A DNA stretch of 64,000 nt, from contig DASXUN010000004.1 of the NCBI GenBank assembly GCA_036504815.1, positions 186,001 to 250,000 of the forward strand, in the 5' to 3' direction. The translations under genes were made by a program, and so were the position numbers. This stretch comes from Gemmatimonadaceae bacterium (GTDB lineage: Bacteria > Gemmatimonadota > Gemmatimonadetes > Gemmatimonadales > Gemmatimonadaceae). Of the stretch, positions 15,987 to 44,767 are shown one piece after another; position 1 is the stretch's first letter; each line of letters begins with the position of its first letter. The notes beneath the pieces are model-generated. The model was given only the letters and a program-made list of their open reading frames with translations, did not search any database and was not told the origin of the DNA.

Positions 15987-16257
15987 GAGTACGACAGAGT
16001 ACGACAGAGTACGACAGAGTACGACAGAGTACGACAGAGTACGACAGAGTACGACAGAGTACCACGGATTCCGACGGACTACGAAGGAGCAATACGATTT
16101 GACGCGGAGACAGACGGAGCAGCGAGATGAACGCGTCTCGTGATGAAACCTAATGTGTATCGTTCGGCATTGACCGTGCTCATCCATGCCATTCCGTGGT
16201 ACGCTGTGCCATTCCGTGGTACTCTGTGCTATTCCGTCGTATTCCGTGGTATTCCGC
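15987..16257. repeat. Decamer tandem array with distant inverted partner (family A)
   Basis: The left arm holds seven head-to-tail copies of ACGACAGAGT (15991-16060) that decay into ACCACGGATT and CCGACGGACT. The right arm (16188-16257) is a degenerate run of ATTCCGTGGT/ACTCTGTGCT words, the approximate reverse complement. About 110 unrelated bases lie between the arms, and the block fills nearly the whole 308-base gap between two minus-strand genes. Otherwise I see no promoter or gene here. Confidence 0.85.
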
Positions 16258-30045: not shown

Positions 30046-30200
30046 TGATGGCGGATGGCGGAAGGCGGAGGACGGATAGCCCCAGCCATCGGCCGTCCGC
30101 CATCGGCCATCAGCCATCCGCCATCGGCCATCAGCCATCAGCCATCAGCCATCGGCCATCGGCCATCGGCCATCGGCCGTCCGCCATCTGCCATCGGCCC
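30046..30200. repeat. GCCATCG/GCCATCA heptamer array with inverted arm (family B)
   Basis: A short left arm (30046-30076, GATGGCGGATGGCGGAAGG...) faces a long right arm (30082-30200) of more than a dozen tandem heptamers such as GGCCATC, AGCCATC and CGCCATC. It starts 33 bases after tRNA-Gln and ends about 75 bases before the prs start. Its translation in one frame (repeated PSAIGHR) is not coding. Confidence 0.85.
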
Positions 30201-34431: not shown

Positions 34432-36123
34432 TCAGGCGAGCGCCACCACGCGGTCGGCGATCGCCTGCGGCCCCGCGCGATGCGCAATGAGCAGCACGGT
34501 GCAGCGTCCTCGCAGCGACGCCACCGACGCGAGCACGCGAGCCTCGGTCTCAAAATCGAGCGCGCTGGTCGCTTCATCGAGCACGAGCAGGCGTGGGGCG
34601 CGCAGCAGCGCGCGCGCGAGCGCAATGCGCTGGCGCTCCCCGCCGCTCAGTTGCACGCCGCGCTCGCCGATCGCCGCGTCGAGGCCACGCGGCAGCGCGT
34701 CCACGAAGTCGCAGGCGGCGGCCGCCAGCGCCCCCCGCATCTCGGCGTCGGTGGCCGTCGCGCGCGCCAGGAGGAGGTTTTCGCGAATCGTGCCGTGCAG
34801 GAGCATCGGCTCCTGCGCCAGGTAGCCGATCATCCCCCGCCACGCCTCGGGCGACCACGTGCGCAGCGGGCGCCCGTCCACGAGCACGTCGCCCGCGGTT
34901 GGCCGGAGCAGGCCGAGCACGAGATCCCCGATGGTGGTCTTGCCCGATCCCGATTCGCCGGTCACCACCGTGATCGCGCCGGCCTCGAGGGTGAGATCCA
35001 CGCCGCGCACCGCGTCTGCCGCGGCACCGGGATAGCGGAACCGCACGCCGCGCAGTTCCACCAGCGGCGGAACGTCGGGCGGCGCGTCGGCAGACACGGG
35101 TTCCAGCGGCGCCTGCGCTGCCGCCTCCTCGCAGCGCTGCAGGAGCCGCTGCACCGAATCGTACGACGCGAGGCACTGCTGCAGATGGCTGAACAGCGAT
35201 TGCAGGTCCGCGAGCCGCGGGACGAGGCGCGCGCAGACGGCGAGCAGGACGAGCAGCGGCGCCGCGGCAATGACGGACGTGCGCACGGCCAGCACGACGA
35301 GCGCGGCGAGTCCCAGCGCCGTGGCCACCGCGAGCGCGAACGACACCCCGGCGCGACGCGCCGCCACCCGACGCGTCAGCCGTGCCCAGAGGTCGGTTTC
35401 GCGACGCACCGTGTCCACCGCCGCGCGGCCGGCGTCATGCGCGTGCAGCATCTTGAGCCCGCCAAGAAATTCGCTGAGCCGCGCGAAGACGTCCTCGGAG
35501 GCGCGCAGAAGGTCCTCACCCTCGACGCGTCCCGGCGCGCGCAGCACCCGCGCCACCGCCAGCACCAGCAATCCGCTGGACACGACCGCCACGAAGAGGA
35601 GCGGCGAGAGCGCCAGCGCCGCGGCCGTGCCCGCGGCAAGGGTGGCGGCCAGCGAAGCCCCCTGCAGCACCATCACGAGCGCGCTGTGCACGTCATCCAC
35701 CTGCGGGCCCACCGCGTGCATCACCGCGCCGGGACGCTCCCCTGTGAAACGCGCCCACGGCATTCGGACGACGGCGGCAAACAGCCGCGTGCGCAGCGAC
35801 GCGACGAGGGTGGATTCGAGCCGCGCCTGTTCCTGCGCCAGCATCCACTGCGCCGCCGCGCGCAGCGCGACGAGCACCACCACGACGGCCAGGGCCGCCT
35901 CGAGCGTTGCGGGCACGCCCAGCGCTCCGAGCAGGCGATCGGCCAGCCCCGCAGCTCCGCTGCCGGCGCCGGCGTCAACGCCCGCGCCGCGCAGCACCAG
36001 CACCAGCAGCAACAAGCCGATCCCCTCAGTGAGCATCACTACCACGGTCAGCACCGCCACGAGGGTCATCGGCCGGCGATGCTCGCGCCACAGCGCGCGC
36101 ACGAACGCGATCAGTGCGCTCAT
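34432..36123 (-). CDS. Lasso-peptide ABC exporter (D protein)
   Basis: The product (563 aa) is a fused permease-ATPase half transporter that most likely exports the mature peptide and gives self-immunity. The membrane domain (about 15-310) has six predicted helices. The ATPase domain (about 350-563) has Walker A GESGSGKT (389-396), YLAQEPMLLHGTIREN, signature LSGGERQR and Walker B LLVLDEATSALD. ATG 36123 overlaps the stop of the nucleotidyltransferase gene (ATGA), making it the last gene of a coupled series. No N-terminal C39 peptidase domain is present, in line with lasso systems where the leader is removed by B1 and B2. Confidence 0.9.
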   Translation of the reverse strand: MSALIAFVRALWREHRRPMTLVAVLTVVVMLTEGIGLLLLVLVLRGAGVDAGAGSGAAGLADRLLGALGVPATLEAALAVVVVLVALRAAAQWMLAQEQARLESTLVASLRTRLFAAVVRMPWARFTGERPGAVMHAVGPQVDDVHSALVMVLQGASLAATLAAGTAAALALSPLLFVAVVSSGLLVLAVARVLRAPGRVEGEDLLRASEDVFARLSEFLGGLKMLHAHDAGRAAVDTVRRETDLWARLTRRVAARRAGVSFALAVATALGLAALVVLAVRTSVIAAAPLLVLLAVCARLVPRLADLQSLFSHLQQCLASYDSVQRLLQRCEEAAAQAPLEPVSADAPPDVPPLVELRGVRFRYPGAAADAVRGVDLTLEAGAITVVTGESGSGKTTIGDLVLGLLRPTAGDVLVDGRPLRTWSPEAWRGMIGYLAQEPMLLHGTIRENLLLARATATDAEMRGALAAAACDFVDALPRGLDAAIGERGVQLSGGERQRIALARALLRAPRLLVLDEATSALDFETEARVLASVASLRGRCTVLLIAHRAGPQAIADRVVALA

Positions 36124-37274
36124 TCGCCGCCCCCTAGGGCGCGACGCAGCAGTCGAAGCGCGCGCACCGGGAAGGCCAGCGGAAGCAGCGCGTCGGGAAG
36201 GCGGAGGGCCTGTCGTTCGCGCGTGGTCGGAAGACTCGCGGCATACATCACGTAGCGCACCTGCGGCCACGCGCCGGCAAGCCACTGGAGATCGTAGCGC
36301 GCGGTGGACTCCCGCCCGACGTCTTCGGTGGTCACCTCGCCTCGCAGTGCAGACACCGCCGCCCCGGCGAGTCGCGCCGCACGGTGGTCGGAGCGCGCGC
36401 GATCACGCATCGCGACCGGCACCGGCACCTCAAGCACGTCGTGCGCCACCAGCAAGGCGGTGTGCAGCGCGCACGCCTGACTCCACTCCGATGCGATTGC
36501 CGCAAGCCGCATCCAGTCAAAACCGTCACGCTGAACGGCGTGCCCAAAGTCCGCCACCCAGAGCAGCGATCTCCACGCGTGCTTCACGCCGTGCAGCGCG
36601 AGCAGCGCGGCCAGTTCCTCGCTGCCGGGCACCAGCACCTCGGCCCCGCCGAGCGCCATCGTGCGCGCCGTCGCGAACAGCGGCGCGGGATCCTGCGGCG
36701 CACCGTAGCGGCGCGCGTGGCATCGCCAGTGCAGTTCCACGGGCCAGACGCTCGCGTCGTGTTCGAGCAGATCCACGCCCTCCCACGCATGGTAGAAGCG
36801 CGCTTCGCGCTCGGTGAAGCCGGCGGGCGCGCGATAGCCGGCCGCCGCCAGTGCGCGGCGCGCGGCGGCGCGATCGCGTTTCGCGATGAGGATGTCGAGA
36901 TCCGTGAACCGGCGGGCCGCCAGGTCGCCGTGCACGTCGGCGGCGAGCGCGGGCCCCTTGTACGCGAGGGCGCGAACCCCGCCGTGCGAAAGCGCCTGGA
37001 GCACCGCGAGCAGTTCTCGCGTTCCCGCCATCGCGCGGCGCGCAAGGTCGCGCGTCTCATCCACCAGCGCGTCGCGCACCTCGGACGGGACGCTCTCACG
37101 GGGAAGCTCGCGCACCACCCACCACGGCACGTCGTGTTGCCGCGCGAGGTCCGCCACCCGACGCCAGTCGCCGACTGCCTCCGCCGCCAAGGCGCGCGCC
37201 GCGGTGGCGCCCGCGTCACGTCGCACGCAGGCGAGCACGAAGGCCAGTTCGGGATCTGCCGATGCCGCCATCAT
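36120..37274 (-). CDS. Nucleotidyltransferase-family tailoring enzyme (N protein)
   Basis: The product (384 aa) fits the uncharacterised nucleotidyltransferase family seen in lasso clusters with a peptide kinase. The pol-beta-type core is visible: LAYKGPALAADVHGDLAARRFTDLDILI with metal-binding Asp125 and Asp127, then a helical C-terminal part with HALHGVKHAW-like and LHTALLVAHDVLEV segments. In the pseudomycoidin system the equivalent PsmN further modifies the phosphorylated peptide tail. A similar step here is inference. The start ATGATG at 37274 overlaps the kinase stop (ATGA). Confidence 0.85.
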   Translation of the reverse strand: MMAASADPELAFVLACVRRDAGATAARALAAEAVGDWRRVADLARQHDVPWWVVRELPRESVPSEVRDALVDETRDLARRAMAGTRELLAVLQALSHGGVRALAYKGPALAADVHGDLAARRFTDLDILIAKRDRAAARRALAAAGYRAPAGFTEREARFYHAWEGVDLLEHDASVWPVELHWRCHARRYGAPQDPAPLFATARTMALGGAEVLVPGSEELAALLALHGVKHAWRSLLWVADFGHAVQRDGFDWMRLAAIASEWSQACALHTALLVAHDVLEVPVPVAMRDRARSDHRAARLAGAAVSALRGEVTTEDVGRESTARYDLQWLAGAWPQVRYVMYAASLPTTRERQALRLPDALLPLAFPVRALRLLRRALGGGE

Positions 37275-38233
37275 GCACTCCAATCTGCATCCCGGGCGGA
37301 TGCCCGGATGCAGTCCAACAAGGCGTCCAGCCGTACGGGATCCGCGTGTGGCACGAGCCGAAGCACGCGACGCCCGCGCATCATCGCGCCGAGCGAACGC
37401 ATCTCCTCGGCGCGCATGGCGTCGTCGAGCAGGTAGTTCGCATACGTGTTGGCCACCAGCGCCATCAGGCCGTCGGCGCCGCCCATTGGCTCCGCATACG
37501 GCGCGCGCGGCTCCGCGCTGCGCTCCGCCAGCACGAAGATGGCGCCGAGCGGCGCGGGCTCCGCACGAAAGGCGTAGTCGGCGCCCAGCGGCAGGCCGCG
37601 CTTGTCCCACGAGGGGGTGATGCGCGGCAACTGCTGCGACGTCCCGAACACCATGCGCTCGGATTCGTCCCACAGGCGCAGGAGCCGGTACGATGGGTAC
37701 GCCATCGCGATGCCATCCACCAGGCGCAGCGCCACGACATCGTCGGCGAGCACGGCGTCGCCGGCCGCCGCAAATGCCGCCGCGGTCGTGCTCTTCCCCG
37801 CCCCGGCCGGTCCGACCAGCAGCACGGCGCGCCCGTCGCGCATCACCGCGCTCGCATGCAGCGCGAGCACGCCGCGGCGGCGCAGGACAAATCCCAGCAC
37901 CGGGCCGAGCAGATAGGTGGCGGTGTCGGCCAGCGTCGAGTCGGTGGCCCACCAGCCGCGCACTTGGGTGGCCGCGCCGTTCACGGTGAAGCCCGTGCCA
38001 TCGGGATAGCGGAACCAGAACGTGCCCGCATCGTCTCGCCGGACGTCGCTCGCATGTCCCGTCGCGCCGCCGTCGCCATACGGCTGGGCACCGCGCGGCA
38101 CGGCCGGCGACGGCGCGCCCTGCGCCAGCGTGACCAGCACGTCGACGGCGCGCGCGTCGGCGGACGGCAGGTCCGGCAGCGGCACATCGGCACGCACGGT
38201 AAGACCGCAGATCTGGTAATCAGGCACGCGCAC
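37271..38233 (-). CDS. HPr-kinase-like lasso peptide kinase (K protein)
   Basis: The product (320 aa) resembles the catalytic half of HPr kinase/phosphorylase. It shows LALHASAV (His126), the P-loop GPAGAGKST (141-149), and VLADDVVAL with Asp164-Asp165. It has no HPr-binding regulatory context and no HPr gene beside it. In the paeninodin cluster the homologous kinase phosphorylates the C-terminal Ser of the precursor. The precursor here also ends in Ser, so the same reaction is the best prediction. The gene overlaps the cyclase by 14 bases and the nucleotidyltransferase by 4. Confidence 0.9.
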   Translation of the reverse strand: MRVPDYQICGLTVRADVPLPDLPSADARAVDVLVTLAQGAPSPAVPRGAQPYGDGGATGHASDVRRDDAGTFWFRYPDGTGFTVNGAATQVRGWWATDSTLADTATYLLGPVLGFVLRRRGVLALHASAVMRDGRAVLLVGPAGAGKSTTAAAFAAAGDAVLADDVVALRLVDGIAMAYPSYRLLRLWDESERMVFGTSQQLPRITPSWDKRGLPLGADYAFRAEPAPLGAIFVLAERSAEPRAPYAEPMGGADGLMALVANTYANYLLDDAMRAEEMRSLGAMMRGRRVLRLVPHADPVRLDALLDCIRASARDADWSA

Positions 38234-39995
38234 CCTCCATCCGCGCCATCCAGCGGTCGAGGAGAATCACGCGCCACGCCTCGACTGCCAGGTTCGGGGC
38301 GCCATCCCGCAAGATCGATTCGGCGCGCGCCCGATCCACCCAAGGCGCCACACGCGGCGAGAGCTTCACGACGGCGCCGCCCGCGGCGCGCCATTGCGCG
38401 ACCCGCGCCTCGTAGTAGCCGCGGAGCGGTGTCTTGGGCCGCGTGCGGATCGCCTCGGGCAGCCGTCCACGCATCGCCTCGCGAAAGAGCGTCTTGTGCT
38501 CCCCCCACGGCACCGCCGGGATCGCAAAGACGAACGCGATGACGCGCGGATCGACGAGGGGAAGCGTCGGCAGCGTCGCCGCGCGCGTGTACGATGGCGC
38601 GGTGGCCTGATACACGTTGTCCCACAACGGCGACGACAGCAGTCGCACCGAAGGTGCGCGCACCGGATGCGACACGAGCGCGACCGCGGACTGCGGCGCC
38701 CGGGCCCCCGCGAGCAGCCACGGCGTCCGATCGGGAATTCGTCCCAACGCGCGCCGCATCCGTGCCCGCCACTCGAGGCCAATCCATGGCCGCGCGCCCG
38801 TGGCGCGCCAATACGCCCACCATGCCGTCGCAACTTCCGCGAGGCCCCGTTCGCGGACCTGTGACGCAAGCGTCGGTGGACGCATCAGGGTGTCGCCGTC
38901 CTCGCCGATGAACATGACCGGCGCGTGACGCGCGAGCGCCGCATGGCTTCGCCGAACGACGCCGAGGTCGGGTTCGTCGAGCGGCTCCGGCGCATACGGC
39001 GCCGCATCATCCAGCCAGGCCAACGGCAGTTCGTCGTCGCCCAGGAGTGTGTCGTGCGCCAGGCCCAGCTGGCGGGCCACCATAGGCGCCAGCTGATCGT
39101 CGTCGCAGGGCACCAGCCGCGGGAAGCTGACCGTTTGCGCAAAGAGCGGGAGCTGCGGTGCGACCGCCCGCACCATCGCGGCAAGCATCGGGCTGTCGAG
39201 CCCCCCGCTCAGCTGGATGCCGGCCGTCGGTGCGCGCAGGCGGTCGCGCACGGCCTCGCCCAGGACAGCCAGGAATCCCTCGACGTACTGTCCACCATCA
39301 CGGTAACGAAGCGGCTCGGGAACCGGGTATTCCCAGCAGCGCCGCAGTCGCGGATCGCCCCGACCGGAGAAGGTCGCGACATGCGCCGGCGGCACGCGAT
39401 GCACGTCACGCCAGACCGTCCCCGTCACGTCCTCGACGTAGCCGACCCGGAGAAAGGCAGCCATCGCCTCCTCGCGCCAGGCGGTGGCCAGCGGCGCGTG
39501 CGCGCGCACGCCCTCGATGGACGAGGCCAGCACGAGCCTCGAACCGTCGCGTCCCCAGTAGCACTGCCGGTTGCCGTGATGATCGCGGAACATGGTCAGG
39601 CGCCGCGAGGCCGGTTCCCAGATCCCAAAGGCGAAGTCGCCGATCAGGCGCTCGGCGCAGCGCTCACCCCATAGCTCCCAGGCCGCCATCGCGAGTTCCG
39701 CGTCGGCGGCCCCGGGAGGCGGCTCGGTCCCGGCCGTCCGCAGGGCGCGGCGCAGGTCGCCCTGCGCATCGAGCCGCAGCGCGCCAAAAAGAACCGCGCC
39801 GCGCGCCCCCACGCATGGCAGGGCGCGATCGAAATCCAGCGGCGCCGGGTGCGCGAGATGCGCGCCGCACAATCCCTCCGCGCGAAACGGCACGGTGACG
39901 GTGCCGTCAATCGCCAGTGCTGAGGCGAGCGGCACGGCCGCGTCGGCGGTGAGCGGCGCGCCATCGAGGTCCACGACCGCAGCGAAGCCGAGCAT
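38220..39995 (-). CDS. Lasso cyclase, asparagine-synthetase-like (C protein)
   Basis: The product (591 aa) should activate the core Asp side chain with ATP and close the isopeptide ring. The N-terminal half (about 1-200) is a class II glutamine-amidotransferase-like domain, but it starts MLGF and lacks the Cys2 nucleophile, so it cannot supply ammonia, as expected for lasso cyclases. The synthetase half carries the PP-loop SGGLDS (263-268). The start at 39995 overlaps the leader-peptidase stop by one base (TGATG). Ordinary AsnB is ruled out by the missing Cys and by the flanking B1, B2, K and N genes. Confidence 0.92.
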   Translation of the reverse strand: MLGFAAVVDLDGAPLTADAAVPLASALAIDGTVTVPFRAEGLCGAHLAHPAPLDFDRALPCVGARGAVLFGALRLDAQGDLRRALRTAGTEPPPGAADAELAMAAWELWGERCAERLIGDFAFGIWEPASRRLTMFRDHHGNRQCYWGRDGSRLVLASSIEGVRAHAPLATAWREEAMAAFLRVGYVEDVTGTVWRDVHRVPPAHVATFSGRGDPRLRRCWEYPVPEPLRYRDGGQYVEGFLAVLGEAVRDRLRAPTAGIQLSGGLDSPMLAAMVRAVAPQLPLFAQTVSFPRLVPCDDDQLAPMVARQLGLAHDTLLGDDELPLAWLDDAAPYAPEPLDEPDLGVVRRSHAALARHAPVMFIGEDGDTLMRPPTLASQVRERGLAEVATAWWAYWRATGARPWIGLEWRARMRRALGRIPDRTPWLLAGARAPQSAVALVSHPVRAPSVRLLSSPLWDNVYQATAPSYTRAATLPTLPLVDPRVIAFVFAIPAVPWGEHKTLFREAMRGRLPEAIRTRPKTPLRGYYEARVAQWRAAGGAVVKLSPRVAPWVDRARAESILRDGAPNLAVEAWRVILLDRWMARMEGARA

Positions 39996-40456
39996 CAGTC
40001 GCCGCGCTCGCCGGTCGCGCCGGGATCGCCGAAGACCGCGAGTCGCTGATACCGATCCAGATCGGTAGCGGCGCCGCTGACGATGACGCCGGCGCTCTCC
40101 ACCCAGGCGTGCGCCTCCAGCGGCCGTCCGTCGCGGGCCACTCCAATCGTGGTGCGAGCCGTGCATCCCGCGCGGCGCAGGAGCACCTCGGCCGTGAGCG
40201 CCTGCGCCAGACAGCGCGCGTCTGGGACCATCGCCGCCGCACGCGCCACGGCGCGGCGCACTTCGACGGCGTAGGCGGCGTCCTCGCGCAGCGCCTGCTC
40301 ACCCGCGAGCCATTCGGTGAACCGTCTCACGCGCGGAAAGGCGCGGACGAGCAGCAGCACCCGAATGACGGCCAGCAGGCCGAGGGCGCGCACGGCCAGG
40401 GCGCGTTCGCGCGGCGAAAGGCGCGCGAAGTTACGAAGCCGGCGCGGCAGGAGCAC
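39995..40456 (-). CDS. Lasso leader peptidase, transglutaminase-like (B2 protein)
   Basis: The product (153 aa from GTG 40456) belongs to the lasso-processing transglutaminase-like family that removes the leader. The catalytic Cys82 lies in DARCLAQALTAEVLLRRAG and His116 in LEAHAWVE, with Asp132 or Asp134 as the likely third residue. The N-terminus (PRRLRNFARLSPRERALAVRALGLLAVIRVLLLVRAF) is the basic then hydrophobic helix typical of B2. The start is inferred: GTG 40456 with AAGGG about 11 bases upstream gives the normal length and a 26-base overlap with B1. Confidence 0.9.
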   Translation of the reverse strand: MLLPRRLRNFARLSPRERALAVRALGLLAVIRVLLLVRAFPRVRRFTEWLAGEQALREDAAYAVEVRRAVARAAAMVPDARCLAQALTAEVLLRRAGCTARTTIGVARDGRPLEAHAWVESAGVIVSGAATDLDRYQRLAVFGDPGATGERGD

Positions 40457-40754
40457 GCACCACCAGACCCTTGGCCAGCAGCAGCTCGACGAAGGCCAGC
40501 ACATCGGCCGCGCACTCGGCGGGCTCGACGTCGTACTCATCGCAGATCGCCTGAACGACCTCATGAATCACGACCGGACGCTGCACCAGCGTCCAGATGC
40601 GGGCCGCCACGCGGTCCACACCGTAGTAGACGCCGTCTCGCATGCCGAGGATCACGGCCTCACCGGCGACGTCGGCCGACACTTGATCGCGCGACGCCAC
40701 GACCGCATCGGCGACGGTCAACCCAGACGTGATGGACACTCGCCGTTCCCTCAT
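40431..40754 (-). CDS. Lasso leader-binding PqqD-type protein (B1 protein)
   Basis: The product (107 aa) is a free-standing RiPP recognition element with the PqqD fold: a beta-hairpin (GEAVILGMRDGVYYGVDRVAARIWTLV, about 31-57) and a winged-helix part (VVIHEVVQAICDEYDVEPAECAADVLAFVELLLAKGLVV, about 61-99). It should hold the YxxPxL leader motif of the precursor and deliver it to B2 and C. It follows the precursor after a 127-base gap holding a terminator hairpin, and overlaps B2 by 26 bases. Confidence 0.92.
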   Translation of the reverse strand: MRERRVSITSGLTVADAVVASRDQVSADVAGEAVILGMRDGVYYGVDRVAARIWTLVQRPVVIHEVVQAICDEYDVEPAECAADVLAFVELLLAKGLVVRAPAAPAS

Positions 40755-40881: not shown

Positions 40882-41034
40882 TCAGGACTTGATGTTGTTC
40901 GGCCCGCCGTCCTTGAGCGTGCCGGCCTTGGAACGCGTGGCCGTCACGGCCGCGACCGTCCCGTACTCGCGAAGGGTCGGAGCCGCGTACTCCTGCTTCT
41001 CGGGCAGGCACTGTTGCTCGTTTGACCGGTCCAT
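40882..41034 (-). CDS. Lasso peptide precursor (A peptide)
   Basis: The product (50 aa) has a leader with the lasso recognition motif YAAPTLREYGTVAAVT (16-31; YxxPxLxxxGxxxxxT) and a short core. Two cleavage sites can be argued. After Thr31-Ala32 the core would start at Thr33 with Asp42 at position 10, too far for known rings. After Thr33-Arg34 (Thr at -2) the core is SKAGTLKDGGPNNIKS, placing Asp42 at position 8 for a Ser1-Asp8 ring and an 8-residue tail ending in Ser50. The second is preferred. GGGGAG stands 5-6 bases before ATG 41034, and the gene has its own promoter and terminator. The C-terminal Ser matches the kinase gene in the cluster. Confidence 0.9.
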   Translation of the reverse strand: MDRSNEQQCLPEKQEYAAPTLREYGTVAAVTATRSKAGTLKDGGPNNIKS

Positions 41035-41125: not shown

Positions 41126-42271
41126 CTACTCGACCCCGCGATCCCATCGCTTCGCCTGCTGAAATGATGCCTGGACCCAGCGTTCCGCCTCACTCTCGCT
41201 GGTGAAGAGCGCTGGCCAACGACGGCGAGCCTCGCCGGCCGCGGCGGCCACGGTCGTGGAGCGACCGAGCTGCGTCAAGAGCCACGCGAGCGCCTCCGAC
41301 CGCACGCCGAGCGTCGGCAGCGGCGACGCCACGGGCGGCGGCAGCAGCGTCGGATGCATGACCGTCTCTGCCAGCGAGTGGTGGTCGAACACGGTCGTGC
41401 CATCCAGGGTCTCGCCGCGCCACTGCCAGACGTAGCCGCCCGGCACGTGCCGCGCGCGAAGCTCCACCTGCATCCGCTGGCCCGCCTTCACATGGAAGGG
41501 TTTCGCCAGCGGAAGGAGCAGGTTGCGGTACATCTCGACGCTCGTGCCCGGCGCGTTGGAGAAACCGATGCCCGGCTGCAATTCGGCGTCGAACCAGAGC
41601 GTCAACGCCTCGAACAGTCCGTCACGCGCGACGGAGATCTCCACGCGTGTCTCGAAGTCGGGGGAACCGACGGTGGCATAGTCGATGGCGGCCCACTGCA
41701 CGCCCGCCCCGAGCAGCTGTCCCCTCTCCACGCTGGTGCGATACGGCACCGAGGCCACGTGCGAAAGAATAGGCGTGATATCGCAACGATCGGCGGCATG
41801 TGACTGCAGCACGTCCCGGCGGTACGTTGTCGACACCTCCGAAGGCGCCACCCAGAGCGTGTCGCGTTCCCAGACCAGGCGCGCACCGGGGCGCAGTTGG
41901 CGGTCGCGCACCGCCATGAAGACGGGAAGGTGATCACCGGAGATGGGGAGCGTCCCCCGCAGATCGCTGATGAGAACGTCCGGCGGCGCGGGCAGGGCCA
42001 CCCGCGCGCCGTCGGCGTGATACCAGGCGATGCGCGCCTCGCACCCGTTGGCCTTTGCGACCTGCGGGACGAGGGTTACGGCCGGATTGATGTCCACGGC
42101 GTCCACGTGCGCCGCGCCCGCCTGGCAGGCGATCACCGACCAGTAGCCGAAGCCGCATCCGAGGTCGAGTACGCGGTCTCCGGGACGGACCACCCGCCGG
42201 ATGGCGGCGTCCATGGCATCGGTCCGCGCGCGGTCGTTCACCATCGCGAGGAACTGGGAGACGGTGTACAT
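41126..42271 (-). CDS. PRMT-like class I methyltransferase at the head of the lasso cluster
   Basis: The product (381 aa) has SAM motif I VLDLGCGFGYWS (34-45), the acidic end of strand 2 (DAVDINP) and a region like the double-E loop of protein arginine methyltransferases, here VLISDLRGTLPISGDHL with Asp in place of both Glu. A beta-barrel part follows (about 150-300, with PLAKPFHVKAGQRMQVELRARHVPGGYVWQWRGETLDG). The last 60 residues form a separate helical tail that resembles the second half of PqqD domains (ALAWLLTQLGRSTTVAAAAGEARRRWP). It ends 91 bases before the precursor gene and points the same way. Whether it modifies the lasso peptide is inference. Confidence 0.75.
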   Translation of the reverse strand: MYTVSQFLAMVNDRARTDAMDAAIRRVVRPGDRVLDLGCGFGYWSVIACQAGAAHVDAVDINPAVTLVPQVAKANGCEARIAWYHADGARVALPAPPDVLISDLRGTLPISGDHLPVFMAVRDRQLRPGARLVWERDTLWVAPSEVSTTYRRDVLQSHAADRCDITPILSHVASVPYRTSVERGQLLGAGVQWAAIDYATVGSPDFETRVEISVARDGLFEALTLWFDAELQPGIGFSNAPGTSVEMYRNLLLPLAKPFHVKAGQRMQVELRARHVPGGYVWQWRGETLDGTTVFDHHSLAETVMHPTLLPPPVASPLPTLGVRSEALAWLLTQLGRSTTVAAAAGEARRRWPALFTSESEAERWVQASFQQAKRWDRGVE

Positions 42272-44058: not shown

Positions 44059-44502
44059 ATGGAAGTCATTCTGCGAGAAGCGGTCGAAAAACTCGGGCAT
44101 CCGGGCGACATCGTGAAGGTGTCGGCGGGGTTTGCCCGCAACTTCCTGCTCCCGCGCGGCATCGCGTACGAAGCCACGCCGGGCAACAAGAAGCGCATTG
44201 CCCAGGAGAAGGCCACGCTCGAGGCGGCGGAGAACGCGCGCCGCACCGCGGCCGAGGAGTTCGCCGCGAAGATCGAGCCCATCTCCCTCACCTTCGCCGC
44301 GCGCGTGGGCGAGGAAGGCAAGCTGTTCGGGTCGGTGACGACCGCGGACATTGCCGCCCAGCTCGAGGCGCAGGGCATCCACATCGAGAAGCGGCAGATC
44401 GACCTGCACGAGCCCATCAAGGCGCTCGGCGTCTACAAGGTCGCCATCAAGCTGCATGCGGATGTGAAGCCCGAAATCAAGGTTTGGGTGATCAAGGGCT
44501 GA
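44059..44502 (+). CDS. rplI: 50S ribosomal protein L9
   Basis: The product (147 aa) has the two-domain L9 shape: an N-terminal RNA-binding part (MEVILREAVEKLGHPGDIVKVSAGFARNFLLPRGIAYEAT), a long connecting helix rich in Lys/Glu/Ala, and a C-terminal domain (GKLFGSVTTADIAAQLEAQGIHIEKRQIDLHEPIKALG). ATG 44059 is used; an in-frame TTG 12 bases upstream would add four residues and is less likely. The gene is closed by an 11-base-pair terminator. Confidence 0.96.
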   Translation: MEVILREAVEKLGHPGDIVKVSAGFARNFLLPRGIAYEATPGNKKRIAQEKATLEAAENARRTAAEEFAAKIEPISLTFAARVGEEGKLFGSVTTADIAAQLEAQGIHIEKRQIDLHEPIKALGVYKVAIKLHADVKPEIKVWVIKG

Positions 44503-44767
44503 GTACGACAGAGTACGACAGAGTACGGCAGAGTACGACAGAGTAGCACAGAACGGGGACAGCTTGCTGGCCCCGTTCTGTGTTTCTGGCATCGTGCCGG
44601 CGCGGCGGGCGCGATGGGGCGCGGGCGGGGTGTGCTCCGCCTTGGGCCGGCGGGTGTGCGCTGGGTCACTGCCGGCGCACGCGGGGCGTGCGAGGGCGAG
44701 ACTCACACGCTCGGCGCCGGGTATGTACCTCTGTCGTACTCTGTCGTATTCTGTCCTATTCCGTCGT
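44502..44767. repeat. Decamer arrays flanking a terminator (family A)
   Basis: The left arm (about 44502-44550) has tandem GTACGACAGA words starting at the rplI stop; the right arm (44730-44767) has their reverse complement (TCTGTCGTAC). Between them lie the rplI terminator and about 150 bases of GC-rich sequence in which I see no gene. With it, the 313-base gap to rsfS is accounted for. Confidence 0.85.
44548..44581 (+). terminator. Intrinsic terminator of the rpsF-rplI operon
   Basis: ACAGAACGGGG (44548-44558) and CCCCGTTCTGT (44571-44581) pair perfectly over 11 bases around a 12-base loop, followed by GTTTCTGG. Confidence 0.8.

Follow-up and report, generated by a model that had tools for sequence, protein, structure and literature searches.

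Where does the leader of the lasso precursor at this locus end, and how large a ring would its cyclase then have to close? The window analysed here is a stretch of 64,000 nucleotides from a Gemmatimonadaceae bacterium. A canonical cut of its 50-residue precursor places the sole acid of the core at position 10, and an acid at positions 7–9 is obtained only if the core starts at residues 34–36. Reviews up to mid-2026 describe natural lasso rings of 7–9 residues (PMC8498205, PMC9266682, PMC13352647), and genome-mining tools and reviews alike assume that the ring-closing acid lies 7–9 residues past the cut. That range is empirical. Literature searches, in which subscription literature was partly covered, found no natural lasso ring of ten residues or of any size above nine. 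The initial annotation had counted correctly that the usual spacing makes residue 33 the first of the core and Asp the tenth, and had then moved the cut downstream, which gives Ser1 and Asp8. The features needed for the argument are as follows.

41126..42271, reverse strand: PRMT-like methyltransferase, upstream of A (PDB PRMT matches at 1e-14; present in most related clusters)
40882..41034, reverse strand: lasso precursor gene A, 50 aa plus stop (translation, NF033521 lasso_leader_L3, homologues)
40939..41034, reverse strand: predicted leader, residues 1-32 (homologue alignment; Tyr-17/Pro-14/Leu-12 ruler from PMC10368454)
40885..40938, reverse strand: preferred core, residues 33-50, TRSKAGTLKDGGPNNIKS (predicted from the invariant Thr31 at Y+15, 54/54 precursors)
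40909..40938, reverse strand: predicted ten-residue ring Thr33-Asp42 (Asp42 the sole core acid; Asp aligned in 28/28)
40885..40932, reverse strand: rival core Ser35-Ser50 with a Ser1-Asp8 ring (needs Thr33 as -2)
40885..40887, reverse strand: C-terminal Ser50, likely phosphorylation site (relatives' [KR][ST]x0-3 ends and an HPr-kinase homologue in the cluster)
40431..40754, reverse strand: B1, PqqD-like RRE protein (PF05402, 2.7e-17; TbiB1, 3e-11; TfuB1, weak)
39995..40564, reverse strand: B2, transglutaminase-like leader peptidase (NF033537, 3e-21, over cut-off; Cys and His conserved)
38220..39998, reverse strand: C, asparagine-synthetase-like lasso cyclase (PF00733, 2.1e-18; invariant SGGxDS)
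37271..38233, reverse strand: K, HPr-kinase-like peptide kinase (TIGR04352, 3.7e-11, below cut-off)
36120..37274, reverse strand: N, NTP_transf_5 nucleotidyltransferase-like protein (PF14907, 3.4e-45)
34432..36123, reverse strand: D, ABC transporter (PF00005, 1.6e-29; PF00664)

The gene order methyltransferase-A-B1-B2-C-kinase-nucleotidyltransferase-ABC transporter makes up a complete lasso-peptide cluster in which every reading frame is intact. The arrangement is far beyond chance, since B1, B2, C, the kinase, the NTP_transf_5 gene and the ABC transporter all lie co-directionally downstream of A. The lasso enzyme set is present in full, with an RRE protein as B1, a transglutaminase-like peptidase as B2 and an asparagine-synthetase-like cyclase as C; Tyr44 of B1 belongs to a conserved Y[YF]G motif, which can be aligned with TbiB1 and, though weakly, with TfuB1. 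B2, which probably starts inside the annotated frame, is encoded once in the genome and has no match among solved structures, while the kinase has weak matches there. Aligned with its relatives, the kinase keeps the His, the P-loop GKS and the Asp-Asp that mark the kinase-tailored class.

Translation of the reverse strand of gene A gives MDRSNEQQCLPEKQEYAAPTLREYGTVAAVTATRSKAGTLKDGGPNNIKS followed by a stop, and GGGGAG stands a few bases 5' of the ATG start. The leader scores 21.1 bits against NCBIfam lasso_leader_L3 (NF033521, cut-off 19), with Tyr16, Pro19, Leu21, Gly25, Thr31, Thr33, Asp42 and Ser50 as landmarks, each at the place given in the initial annotation. Under the preferred cut, Tyr16, Pro19 and Leu21 become -17, -14 and -12, and Thr31 and Ala32 become -2 and -1, so that the peptide combines a YxxPxLxxxG leader with Thr at -2. 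Judged from these sequence features and the neighbouring genes, gene A encodes a lasso precursor of the kinase-tailored type, which bears out the initial annotation of the frame as a lasso precursor with a consensus leader.

Related precursors were collected in phylum searches with the precursor alone and with the B2 family, and by running the precursor alignment against 179 family genomes. The 54 that resulted mostly adjoin the same gene set and share as fixed points the leader Tyr/Trp, Pro, Leu, Gly and Thr together with one core Asp. An Asp aligns with Asp42 in all 28 precursors of the alignment, in agreement with the earlier choice of this residue, the only acid after the cut, as the ring acid. 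The proposed match between the C-terminal Ser and the kinase at 37271-38233 also held: 52/54 relatives end in [KR][ST]x0-3, mostly Arg/Lys-Thr, and in many cases one to three further residues come after it. Counted from the canonical cut, the Asp stands at position 9 in 31 precursors, 10 in 17, 11 in four and 8 in two; L053, KVDTIGKNDGGSGTMKRT, is an Asp9 example and L073, SAGTRNSAAGDGGTGFRRKTR, an Asp11 example. Two spacings can occur beside a single cyclase, 9 and 10 in L170, L171 and L179 and 10 and 11 in L073 and L173. Predicted ring length in this Gemmatimonadaceae cluster family would vary over 9, 10 and 11 residues. In some Asp10/11 precursors (L054, L174, L173) the ring and the tail each contain a single Cys, for example TRTCAKSYNDGTSAGC..., a pattern that fits a ring-tail disulfide by which a large ring would be held. 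One genus also contains similar precursors that lack adjoining B or C genes (L166, L167, L169, L178 and L182, in genomes G024, G129, G210 and G416) and read KVGTRGKKDGG... or TVGTKGRRDGRRS...RRTGY, which suggests that its dispersed precursors are served in trans.

Conservation of the leader bears directly on the position of the cut. In 54/54 related precursors Thr31 is found at +15 from the leader Tyr/Trp and at +6 from the Gly. Because the pattern used to extract these 54 itself demanded Thr31, a control scan of the same loci left this residue free and asked for no more than YxxPxL, an Asp and a C-terminal [KR][ST]; Thr31 was kept in 53/53 leader-like peptides, which speaks against circular selection. 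Residue 33 is in contrast variable (K15, T11, R10, A9, S4, V3, N2). If Thr33 acted as the -2 residue and so rescued precursors whose Asp lies far from the cut, Asp10 precursors should have it more often, and they do not (4/17 against 6/31 in Asp9 precursors; Fisher p=0.73). Nor does a second Thr act as a general rescue of a 7–9 ring: it would work in 6/21 Asp10/11 precursors, and the other 15 have no second Thr able to give such a ring. The initial annotation had proposed aligning homologous precursors to see which Thr is conserved; it is Thr31 rather than Thr33, which would place the cut two residues earlier than had been suggested.

The same ruler was applied to 35 precursors from other phyla, hand-picked among the pattern matches. 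The first suitable acid falls at position 7 in two, 8 in eight, 9 in 20, 10 in two, 11 in two and 12 in one, so that 30/35 lie within 7–9; on these acid positions the Tyr ruler is widely applicable, and outside the family too a minority goes beyond nine. Lasso-like precursors with a first suitable Asp 10–12 residues past the canonical cut (L186, L195, L196, L214, L239) come from Porphyrobacter, Rokubacteria, Elainella, Pleurocapsa and an acidobacterium; in the one from Pleurocapsa a later Thr-Val-Gly would restore a Gly1-Asp8 ring. For BsfA, from another kinase-containing cluster, mass spectrometry places the cut 17 residues after the leader Tyr, the distance that the preferred cut would have here, although its -2 residue is Ile (PMC10368454).

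The position of the additional residue argues against a longer leader. By sequence, the window cyclase falls within a group of Asp9 cyclases from its genus (97/97 support), the closest of which is 53% identical. The Gly at core position 6, counted from Thr31, is in register in the window precursor and in 26/31 Asp9 precursors, and relative to its nearest relatives by cyclase, all of them Asp9, the stretch from Gly38 to Asp42 is one residue longer in the window precursor. The spacing from Gly25 to Thr31 is constant across the relatives, so the claim that the leader had grown by two residues fails. Whatever the true start, the predicted ring is one residue longer than those of its relatives and the leader is not longer; Asp10 in the window appears to have arisen inside an Asp9 cyclase clade through one added residue between Gly38 and Asp42.

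The most reasonable explanation, to which we assign a probability of about 0.57, is that the precursor is cut after Ala32 to release TRSKAGTLKDGGPNNIKS, which would be closed into a Thr1-Asp10 ring and phosphorylated on its C-terminal Ser. The tail, GGPNNIKS, lacks a bulky aromatic residue that could act as a plug, and this counts against a lasso with a ten-residue ring. The earlier alternative, in which B2 cuts after Arg34 with Thr33 at -2 to give SKAGTLKDGGPNNIKS, has the appeal of a Ser at position 1 and a classical eight-residue ring, and Thr33 is indeed present; because all four Asp10 precursors of the window's genus have it, this register is not absurd for that subgroup. Residue 35 is moreover one of Gly, Ser, Ala and Thr in 35/54 precursors, residues of the type with which lasso cores usually begin, and a start there would yield rings of 7–9 in all but the two Asp8 precursors, which counts against a start at Thr33. 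Against the Ser35 register stand the invariance of Thr31, the presence of Thr33 in just 11/54 precursors with no association with Asp10, the unchanged leader spacing and the products that it implies elsewhere, namely Asp1-Asp7 rings in 14 relatives and an N-terminal Pro in L099. We therefore regard a Ser1-Asp8 ring in the window peptide as unlikely. A start at residue 34 would give an Arg1-Asp9 ring here but Val1 in most relatives, with a residue other than Thr at -2 throughout, and was given little weight.

An invariant Thr31 could also be reconciled with a ring of 7–9 if B2 cut after Ala32 and an aminopeptidase from outside the cluster then trimmed Thr-Arg, or Thr, before cyclisation. Profile searches found no peptidase gene in the cluster besides B2, and B2 cleavage and cyclisation by C are thought to be coupled, so we consider such two-step processing very unlikely. 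More remote still, in our view, is a canonical cut of a precursor that is a poor or dead substrate on which the ring never forms: the single precursor copy and its Asp10 within a clade of Asp9 cyclases would fit, but all cluster genes are open and 20 other Asp10/Asp11 precursors exist, of which three belong to the same genus and the others to the wider family.

For the window peptide we infer the cut, ring closure, threading and phosphorylation site, and maturation by way of a Thr1-Asp10 ring might proceed as follows. B1 would bind the YxxPxL leader motif, B2 would cut after Thr31-Ala32, and C would join the Thr33 amine to the Asp42 side chain, so that ten residues form the ring and eight the tail. 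A first residue other than Gly has a precedent in Asn1 of metanodin (PMC12670498), and a ten-residue-ring analogue was made in vitro by the fusilassin enzymes according to a review (PMC8498205); in reviewed work, a ring one residue larger or smaller is usually obtained in lower yield. The kinase could phosphorylate Ser50 on the precursor, ahead of maturation or in its course, following the paeninodin example (PMC8498205, PMC9266682). A cluster kinase may instead target a Ser within the ring, as BsfK does (PMC10368454). Such BsfA-like modification of core Ser3 (Ser35) is disfavoured here, since Ser occupies position 3 in 6/54 precursors against 52/54 with a C-terminal [ST]. Finally, the nucleotidyltransferase-like N may add a sugar to the Ser50 phosphate, perhaps a hexose, which PsmN reportedly adds to phosphate.

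Under the best-supported cut 21/54 precursors break the 7–9 rule, so either larger natural rings exist or the cut is not set by the -2 Thr, and either outcome would change core prediction. That these loci represent a natural, mainly Gemmatimonadaceae family with rings of 10 and 11 beside 9, sometimes from one cyclase, and with a window product that is Thr1-Asp10, phosphorylated and possibly glycosylated on its C-terminal Ser, we put at even odds. A cyclase tolerant of 9–11-residue rings would be useful for engineering. What appears to be new is an Asp10/Asp11 lasso family that carries kinase, nucleotidyltransferase-like and methyltransferase genes.

The PRMT-like methyltransferase (window 41126-42271) recurs in L053, L054, L057, L059, L060, L066, L073, L080, L099, L104, L107, L109, L115, L163, L170-L172, L174 and L179, and no such enzyme turned up in the literature on lasso clusters that was searched. 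At the putative double-Glu substrate loop, the window has ISDLRGTLPISG against VED[VL]RG in most relatives. Arg methylation is a doubtful role, as the cores of L066, L107, L099 and L172 are without Arg. Elsewhere in the window, ten-base tandem arrays (GAGTACGACA) lie at 15987-16084, 44501-44552 and 44729-44767, one pair near 44.5–44.8 kb being in opposite orientation; genome-wide the array has 129 overlapping 30-base matches on both strands and a reversed control has none. A seven-base array of GCCATCG, about 16 copies at 30085-30199, lies just after a tRNA-Gln gene.

Among known systems, the paeninodin/ThcoA-type kinase-tailored peptides of Firmicutes, with SyanA in Sphingobium, share with the window split B1/B2, C, an HPr-kinase homologue and a C-terminal Ser as phospho-acceptor (PMC8498205, PMC9266682); their cores are unrelated in sequence and their ring is classical, and they differ from the window's relatives, most of which have Arg/Lys-Thr ends, often extended. 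BsfA of Bradymonas sediminis likewise has a kinase-containing cluster and a Tyr-17/Pro-14/Leu-12 leader whose cut was measured at Tyr+17, whereas its Ile at -2, Gly1-Asp8 ring, phospho-Ser3 and terminal Asp set it apart (PMC10368454). The psm cluster for pseudomycoidin resembles the window in pairing a kinase with a nucleotidyltransferase-like N gene; it differs in its Bacillus host and its core, and the text consulted on it describes no PRMT-like methyltransferase. Metanodin, an uncultured-soil lasso peptide, shares a first residue other than Gly but has a classical ring and a proteobacterial ABC-type cluster (PMC12670498). Among fusilassin/fuscanodin analogues a ten-residue macrolactam has been made, the ring size predicted in the window (PMC8498205), yet these are engineered in vitro products rather than natural ones. 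Caulosegnins I-III, in which one enzyme set yields ring sizes 8 and 9 (PMC13352647), provide a precedent for mixed spacings, although both of their sizes fall within the classical range.
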